Below are positions 28,249 to 29,775 of a stretch of 64,000 nucleotides of DNA, piece by piece. The DNA is from Candidatus Polarisedimenticolaceae bacterium. GTDB taxonomy: Bacteria; Acidobacteriota; Polarisedimenticolia; Polarisedimenticolales; DASRJG01. The DNA is taken from assembly GCA_036275915.1 (NCBI GenBank), contig DASUCV010000002.1, positions 124,001 to 188,000 of the forward strand, given 5' to 3'. The translations under genes were made by a program, and so were the position numbers. The notes beneath the pieces were generated by a model. The model was not told the origin of the DNA, made no database searches, and saw only the letters and a list, made by a program, of their open reading frames with translations. Numbering within the stretch: position 1 is the first letter of the stretch; the number at the start of each line of letters is the position of its first letter.

Positions 28249-28298
28249 TCCGCAACACAGTTGACGCAGGCGTCCCCAGACCTAGATTTTCAACGGAT

Positions 28299-29168
28299 AT
28301 GACGCCGTCCACACCGAAGCCGCGGTTCCTGATCGGGGCCTCCCCCGACGATCGGGCGATCGCCGAAGCGCTCCGGACGGCGCTCGCGGATCTCGCCGAC
28401 GTCACCCTCTGGTCCCGAGGCGCCTTCGAGCCTGGGCTCACCGGCTCCGCCGGCCTCCTCGACGCGGTTCGCGGATTCGACTTCGCGGCGTTTGTCGTCG
28501 CGCCCGAAGGAACGGCGCCGAAGCGCGCGACACGGCGCGGCGACGCGTCCGACCCGGTCGCGCTGGCTCTCGGGATCTGTCTGGGCTCGCTCGGGCGTCA
28601 GCGAACGTTCGTCGTCTGTTCCGCCGAGAGTCCCTTGCCCGCCGAGCTTCGCGGCGTCGTCGCGGCGACGTTTCCGCCGCCGCGCTCGGCCGGCATCCCA
28701 CCGGCGGTCGGGTGCGCCGCGGCGATCCTCCGCGAGCAGATCCTGCGCCTCGTCCCGGCTCCGACGGCGGGCAAGGCCGCGCGCGCCGGCGCGACGAAGC
28801 CGAATCAGGTCGCCCGGAGGCGCCGCCGCCCCACGCTGGGGACGGCCTACCTGGCGGGACCGCGGCGCGTCCTCAAGATCGTCGACATCAGCATGACCGG
28901 CGCGCTCCTCGAGTCGTTCGGCGAGATCCCCGAAGGGCAGCTCCTCGATCTCGACCTCGCCCTCGAGAACGGCACCCGGATCCGGGTCAGCGCGCGCGTC
29001 GCCAGGAACCAGCACCCGCAGTGGGGCCGTTCGGGGGGCGTCGGCGTCGCGTTCCTCCGCTTCGAGGGGGACTCGCGCGAGCACCTCGCGCAGTACATCG
29101 ACGCCGACCCCGACGCGTCAACAGGCGAGCTCCACCTGCTCGCCGACGCGGACGTCCCCGCCCGCTAG
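28299..29168 (+). CDS. TIR-like (CAP12-type) domain fused to a PilZ domain; catalytic Glu apparently lost
   Basis: 289 aa. Residues about 9-135 match the predicted nucleotide-binding TIR-like family (Pfam TIR_like): FLIGASPDDRAIAEALRTAL, VTLWSRGAFEPG, GFDFAAFVVAPEG and SDPVALALGICLGSLGRQRTFVV. In active members the last block reads NVxFELGLFxGRLGRERTFIV with a catalytic Glu; here that position is Ala90. Residues about 170-270 form a PilZ domain with an Arg-rich start (ARRRRRP, 172-178), the DxSxxG motif DISMTGALLES (196-206) and GGVGVAFLRF, suggesting c-di-GMP binding. It was assigned by motif reading only. The neighbours are not defence genes. Confidence 0.75.
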   Translation: MTPSTPKPRFLIGASPDDRAIAEALRTALADLADVTLWSRGAFEPGLTGSAGLLDAVRGFDFAAFVVAPEGTAPKRATRRGDASDPVALALGICLGSLGRQRTFVVCSAESPLPAELRGVVAATFPPPRSAGIPPAVGCAAAILREQILRLVPAPTAGKAARAGATKPNQVARRRRRPTLGTAYLAGPRRVLKIVDISMTGALLESFGEIPEGQLLDLDLALENGTRIRVSARVARNQHPQWGRSGGVGVAFLRFEGDSREHLAQYIDADPDASTGELHLLADADVPAR

Positions 29169-29247: not shown

Positions 29248-29727
29248 ATGATCCGCGAGATCGACGCGTCCGAGTTCGAGATCGTGTGGCCGATCTACCG
29301 CGCGGTGATCGCCGGCGGTGACGCCTTCGCACCGGCTCCCGACACACCGTTCGAGGAAGCGCGGCGGACGTGGGCCGAGCCGCCGGCCCGCGCGTTCGTC
29401 GCCACCGAAGCGGGCGCGGTCCTCGGGAGCTACATGCTCCGCCCGAACCAGCCCGGCCTAGGCGACCACGTCGCGAACGCCGGCTACATCGTCGCCCCGA
29501 AGGCCCGCGGCCGCGGCCTCGCGCGGACGATGTGCGAGCACTCGCTCGAGACGGCGCGCGTGGCGGGATTCACGGCGATGCAGTTCAACTACGTCGTCGC
29601 GACGAACACGGGCGCGATCAAGGTCTGGGAGCGCTGCGGCTTCAAGGTCGTCGGACGTGTCCCCAAGGCGTTCCGCCACGCGACACTGGGACCGGTCGAC
29701 GTCCTCGTCATGCACCGTTTTCTCTGA
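29248..29727 (+). CDS. GNAT acetyltransferase
   Basis: 159 aa. NAGYIVAPKARGRGLARTMCEHSLETARVAGFTAMQFNYVVATNTGAIKVWERCGFKVVGRVP is a full GNAT core with the RGRGLA acetyl-CoA loop. The stop codon directly touches a 48-bp hairpin repeat. Substrate unknown. Confidence 0.86.
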   Translation: MIREIDASEFEIVWPIYRAVIAGGDAFAPAPDTPFEEARRTWAEPPARAFVATEAGAVLGSYMLRPNQPGLGDHVANAGYIVAPKARGRGLARTMCEHSLETARVAGFTAMQFNYVVATNTGAIKVWERCGFKVVGRVPKAFRHATLGPVDVLVMHRFL

Positions 29728-29775
29728 GGGGACAGCTTCCGAAACTCTGTGCTTCGAGTTTCGGAAGCTGTCCCC
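29728..29775. repeat. Perfect 20-bp inverted repeat of the GGGGACAG family
   Basis: The arms at 29728-29747 and 29756-29775 are perfect 20-bp complements around an 8-base loop (TGTGCTTC). They begin GGGGACAGCTTCC and end GGAAGCTGTCCCC, so this is a longer relative of the GGGGACAGTCCCC palindromes. A further half copy (ACTGTCCCCG) follows near 29784-29793. It lies between two convergent genes and could terminate both. Confidence 0.85.

Follow-up and report, generated by a model that had tools for sequence, protein, structure and literature searches.

A CAP12-type TIR domain that has lost its catalytic pocket is fused to a PilZ domain in a Polarisedimenticolaceae genome

TIR domains of the CAP12 type are known to act as effectors that destroy NAD+ when an attached STING or CNBD domain senses a cyclic nucleotide. 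The locus described here lies in a window of 64,000 nucleotides, the whole stretch of DNA that was analysed, and joins such a TIR domain to a PilZ domain, usually a c-di-GMP sensor, in one gene, with Ala at the position of the catalytic Glu. What can a TIR domain altered in this way do under a PilZ partner?

The fusion gene and its two folds

The gene (28299..29168, + strand) is an open frame from ATG to TAG and encodes a protein of 289 aa (P0001). Its GC content at the three codon positions was 0.75/0.57/0.90, which is of the coding type. A frameshift or an overprediction was ruled out by the open frame together with this composition, and a full-length homologue with 34% identity was present in the same genome. 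A long overlapping frame of 264 aa on the antisense strand is expected at 67% GC. A sequence-only reading had proposed that a TIR-like domain and a PilZ domain share this frame, which was confirmed by Pfam matches and predicted folds; the motifs it had quoted, WSRGAF (residues 38-43) and LGSLGRQRTF (95-104), were all found.

The TIR domain of the CAP12/Pycsar type occupies residues 8-150 (28320..28748, +) as judged from Pfam and the AlphaFold2 model. The Pfam family CAP12-PCTIR_TIR (PF10137) matched residues 11-125 with an E-value of 4.3e-10 and 40.1 bits (curated cut-off 24.7), and NCBIfam gave a partial Cap12 match (4.4e-12) that was far under the equivalog cut-off. When P0001 was compared with the PDB by phmmer, the best match was PycTIR (8jsj, E 3.6e-8), followed by the TIR-STING proteins SfSTING (7un8) and 9lmq. 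The AlphaFold2 model, built from a 26-row alignment and having a mean pLDDT of 81.5, contained a TIR fold and a PilZ fold, both confident, connected by a poorly ordered linker. The pLDDT of the TIR core was mostly 85-96, with a weak loop at 70-90, while the linker (residues 151-172; 28749..28814, +) was mostly of low confidence, with pLDDT below 50 at residues 157-159 and 161-174. The closest fold to the TIR half was TIR-STING 9lmq (VIA Z 14.6 over 142 residues, rmsd 3.5), and SfSTING 7un8 gave a Z of 14.4 over 121 residues; other TIR domains and DNPH1-like proteins scored lower, with Z of 11-12.5. The CAP12-type TIR fold claimed from the letters was thus upheld by structure prediction, and a model with no TIR fold, the outcome which that reading had set against itself, was not obtained.

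The PilZ domain covers residues 173-272 (28815..29114, +), as placed by Pfam and the domain model. The Pfam match (PF07238) extended over residues 183-268 with an E-value of 4e-9 and 37.2 bits (cut-off 22.5), and NCBIfam gave a partial match to the PilZ-type family TIGR02266. Modelled alone, this half was closest to MotI (VIA Z 14.3), followed by MrkH (about 13.2). The c-di-GMP-bound structures of Alg44, MapZ and YcgR matched with Z of 11-13, and XC1028, a PilZ protein with trivial c-di-GMP binding, matched less well than these (Z 7.4).

The NAD pocket of the fusion and its Glu-bearing paralogue

In the NAD+ pocket of SfSTING, F6, W33, F37 and L47 stack the nicotinamide, S10, R78 and N80 contact the phosphate and ribose, E84 is the catalytic residue and D110 is supplied by the dimer mate (PMC9402430). 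These positions were compared across an alignment with 29 further TIR domains of the CAP12 type, of which 28 come from other genomes of the phylum and one from Longimonas. Four of the positions, the Arg, Asn, Glu and Asp, did not vary among these relatives, and all five polar pocket residues were retained in 26 of the 29, the other three retaining four.

In P0001, the catalytic Glu of helix alpha-C, found in 29/29 relatives and in the paralogue, is replaced by Ala90 (codon GCT; 28566..28568, +). The assignment of Ala90 to this position, already made from the letters, agreed with the phmmer alignments, in which Ala90 faced the Glu of PycTIR 8jsj, SfSTING 7un8 and 9lmq. The loss was wider than had been seen before, since the RDN motif reads SDP (residues 84-86; 28548..28556, +), so that the Arg and Asn equivalent to R78 and N80, each present in 29/29 relatives, are also gone. 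The replacements are Ser84 for Arg, Pro86 for Asn, Ala90 for Glu, Glu116 for Asp and Leu11 for F6. A substitute active-site Glu was looked for; none was present between Glu70 and Glu110, nor in the sequence VALALG around position 90. Within WSRGAF (28410..28427, +), alignment to SfSTING (PMC9402430) equates Trp38 and Phe43 with W33 and F37, two residues of the cradle that stacks nicotinamide. Both are kept, as are Leu53 and Ser15, the latter being the sole polar pocket residue left. P0001 retains one of five polar pocket residues, 4/9 of the whole pocket and 9/13 of the other conserved positions, among them G92, R102, P114, L117 and G119.

The enzymatically dead appearance of the TIR site was borne out by the break in RDN besides the loss of Glu. 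Having lost most of the polar pocket residues that its relatives keep, the TIR domain is very probably not a conventional NADase, that is, one working by the known mechanism. The TIR-PilZ architecture combined with the loss of the catalytic pocket is well supported.

The search proposed earlier for a TIR-PilZ fusion that keeps the Glu found one, in the same genome, which the sequence-only reading had missed. This paralogue (contig C10, 3948-4763, - strand) is 34% identical to P0001 over 268 aligned residues, and Pfam detected both domains in it (1.8e-21 and 7.4e-12). It retains Phe14, Ser18, Trp41, Phe46, Leu56, Asn89, Glu93 and Asp120, giving four of five polar pocket residues, 8/9 of the whole pocket and 9/13 of the other conserved positions. 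Its pocket Arg has become A87 and the Asp of its RDN motif G88, so the paralogue may be impaired too. P0001 and the paralogue may represent dead and live forms of the same unusual sensor. PADLOC scored it against the CBASS TIR effectors with 7e-32. In the TIR tree, in which placement was poorly supported, the branch of P0001 was about three times as long as that of the paralogue (2.03 vs 0.63); the PilZ tree was too weak for a comparison of rates. P0001 and the paralogue are not linked and neither has a conserved partner; the paralogue lies beside MuiA-like and Spy-like genes. A TIGR03436 match, under its cut-off, hints at Acidobacteriota.

The PilZ motif, the gene neighbourhood and the distribution of the fusion

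The Arg cluster and DxSxxG motif described earlier are present as RRRRR (residues 173-177; 28815..28829, +), a candidate RxxxR whose register is ambiguous by about one residue, and DISMTG (residues 196-201; 28884..28901, +), identified by sequence and alignment. Compared with the canonical PilZ protein L034 of the same genome (ERRSHAR), R173xxxR177 is offset by one position, and Pro178 takes the position of the second Arg; the start points of the structural matches placed the motif within one or two residues. In the paralogue the run is RRR and the second Arg of RxxxR is absent. Given the shifted motif of P0001 and the missing Arg of the paralogue, the ligand may be something other than c-di-GMP. 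PilZ proteins that lack the motif and show little or no c-di-GMP binding are known (XCC6012, PMC3131395), and PlpA was also reported not to bind it (PMC8316039). From the motifs, c-di-GMP binding by P0001 is plausible; by the paralogue it is doubtful. The genome contains ten GGDEF and ten PilZ stretches, so c-di-GMP is probably made and c-di-GMP signalling probably exists. Elsewhere in the class, PAS-GGDEF-PilZ proteins (L003-L006, L029) have a shortened Arg motif, RRPR, with no RxxxR, ahead of D/NLSxSG.

Pfam identified the neighbourhood, in order, as CAAX-protease-like, GNAT, DUF1697, the fusion, GNAT, MFS and Mrp/ParA. A sigma-70-like promoter match, TTGACG-16-TAGATT (28261..28288, +), ends 10 bases upstream of the start codon; it is a consensus match only, one being found against 0.0 expected in shuffles. 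The GNAT acetyltransferase gene (29248..29727, +; Pfam E 4.6e-16), possibly co-transcribed, starts 79 bases past the fusion gene and is followed by a strong terminator-like hairpin (29728-29775), again a consensus match only. With the promoter match upstream and the hairpin after the GNAT gene, the fusion and this gene would form one transcription unit.

The suggested tie to CBASS was not supported. No cyclase genes were found among the six identified neighbours by Pfam, and no defence genes adjoined the fusion among them. A genome-wide SMODS search returned only one CD-NTase candidate, on contig C22, where the locus has its own HNH-SAVED effector; neither TIR-PilZ fusion is linked to it. That CBASS-like operon (L039:4926-9508; C22, about 470900-475500) lies in a lower-GC island (57% GC) with a serine recombinase and encodes a CD-NTase, the HNH-SAVED effector, a DUF6791-ThiF (E1-like) protein, an E2-like protein with a SEC-C motif and a multiubiquitin protein. 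CBASS genes are thus mixed there with multiubiquitin conjugation genes.

About 660 genomes of the phylum, among them the other 40 of the class and the only other one of the family, yielded no further TIR-PilZ fusion; in the large draws only the top candidates of each genome were scored, and a weak fusion might have escaped. The other TIR-bearing proteins fetched were checked for PilZ with a home-made profile and none was positive; later rounds added no TIR proteins to this set. The fusion was likewise absent from the plasmids searched (25 TIR matches, none spanning most of the query), from phages and viral contigs, and from the species-genome contig scans, which yielded one TIR domain without PilZ. 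No description was found in the literature covered, most subscription journals being outside that coverage.

Other CAP12-type TIR relatives are joined to TPR, HAD, methyltransferase, apparently CNBD-like or unnamed partners. One (L016:454-1968) carries a histidine-specific methyltransferase domain (PF10017, 1.3e-21) and has RDN and Glu intact. Two long proteins of different families (L059:1369-3360 and L050:1480-3438) have an N-terminal CAP12-type TIR and a C-terminal HAD-type hydrolase, the latter from Pfam on L059 only. Two further sets (L018, L019, L049, L051 and L014, L055) each have their own C-terminal region, and Pfam named the TIR domain alone in L018 and L014. In L042:973-1971 a receiver-like domain (weak Response_reg match) is N-terminal to the TIR domain.

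Possible roles and likeness to known systems

We tentatively favour the explanation that the TIR domain of P0001 has become a pseudo-NADase governed by its PilZ sensor, and that its role is that of a scaffold or a regulatory partner, possibly for the Glu-bearing paralogue. Either c-di-GMP or a partner protein may act on the PilZ half, and the TIR half would then shift its oligomeric state; no longer able to cut NAD+, it would work as a scaffold. The likeliest partner would be the paralogue. Since the SfSTING site is completed by D110 of the dimer mate and P0001 is still acidic at that position (Glu116), a mixed TIR assembly could tune the NADase of the paralogue. Among the roles suggested earlier, adaptor, decoy or inhibitor, an adaptor or regulatory subunit fits best because a Glu-bearing paralogue exists.

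The main rival is decay of the TIR half. As a lineage-restricted, fast-evolving gene, it could be drifting. On this view P0001 would by now be a PilZ protein of the ordinary sort, carrying at its N-terminus a decaying remnant or a simple dimerisation module and having no NAD-related partner. The long TIR branch, the loss of 9 of the 22 conserved TIR positions, the persistence of both PilZ motif elements and the lack of defence neighbours are consistent with this. However, the TIR core was confidently modelled by AlphaFold2, the cradle (W38, F43, L53) and the five conserved residues G92 to G119 named above are retained, and the frame is open over its full length. We consider such decay possible but somewhat doubtful.

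Both fusions might instead serve, or once have served, as effectors against phages that carry PilZ in place of STING or CNBD as the cyclic-nucleotide sensor, P0001 being a dominant-negative form or decoy that damps the paralogue. The logic would be that of TIR-STING and PycTIR, in which a cyclic nucleotide sensor is joined to a CAP12-type TIR (PMC9402430, PMC11224242). The Glu, Asn, Ser and Asp kept in the paralogue pocket and its PADLOC score also point this way. The neighbourhoods argue against it, since no cyclase or defence genes adjoin P0001 and MuiA-like and Spy-like genes adjoin the paralogue, and the fusion occurred in no phage or plasmid record searched. This role appears unlikely.

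The nucleoside hydrolases DNPH1/Rcl and MilB, which share the TIR-like fold, also use an acidic catalytic residue. It is distinctly improbable that P0001 still binds or processes a nucleotide in another way, gated by its PilZ half, because its pocket has lost the Arg, the Asn and the catalytic Glu, although the model matches DNPH1/Rcl at a Z of about 11, Ser15 and the hydrophobic cradle are kept, and TirD, an amoebal CAP12-type protein, is toxic independently of its putative catalytic Glu (PMC13142454).

To return to the pseudo-NADase, its most unusual form would pair two proteins as a switch: a pseudo-TIR that binds c-di-GMP and the paralogue with its Glu, each carrying a PilZ domain, would assemble together, and the housekeeping messenger c-di-GMP would in this way set NAD+ consumption. 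We give this form little credence. If true, it would be a TIR NADase that PilZ gates and that a dead subunit controls. A PilZ partner would connect CAP12-type TIR effectors with c-di-GMP, a general messenger. Having a TIR without its catalytic residues and another with its Glu in a single genome would make it possible to test directly whether pseudo-TIR domains of bacteria regulate the assembly of TIR proteins.

Among known systems, P0001 resembles TIR-STING/Cap12 of CBASS (SfSTING 7un8; 9lmq) in its PF10137 family and fold (Z 14.4-14.6) and in the order of an N-terminal TIR followed by a domain able to sense a cyclic dinucleotide. It differs in having PilZ in place of STING, in the absence of the catalytic Glu, Arg and Asn, and in lying outside a CBASS operon. 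PycTIR of Pycsar (8jsj) shares the TIR family and the single chain of sensor and TIR, whereas its sensor is an N-terminal CNBD that binds cUMP, its catalytic Glu is present and the domain order is reversed. DNPH1/Rcl nucleoside hydrolases have a related fold (Z about 11) but belong to a different family, and no residue matching their acidic catalytic residue was seen in P0001. With the PilZ receptors MotI/DgrA, MrkH, Alg44 and MapZ, P0001 shares the PilZ fold, DxSxxG and an Arg-rich segment preceding the first strand; unlike them, it is joined to a TIR domain and the register of its RxxxR is uncertain.
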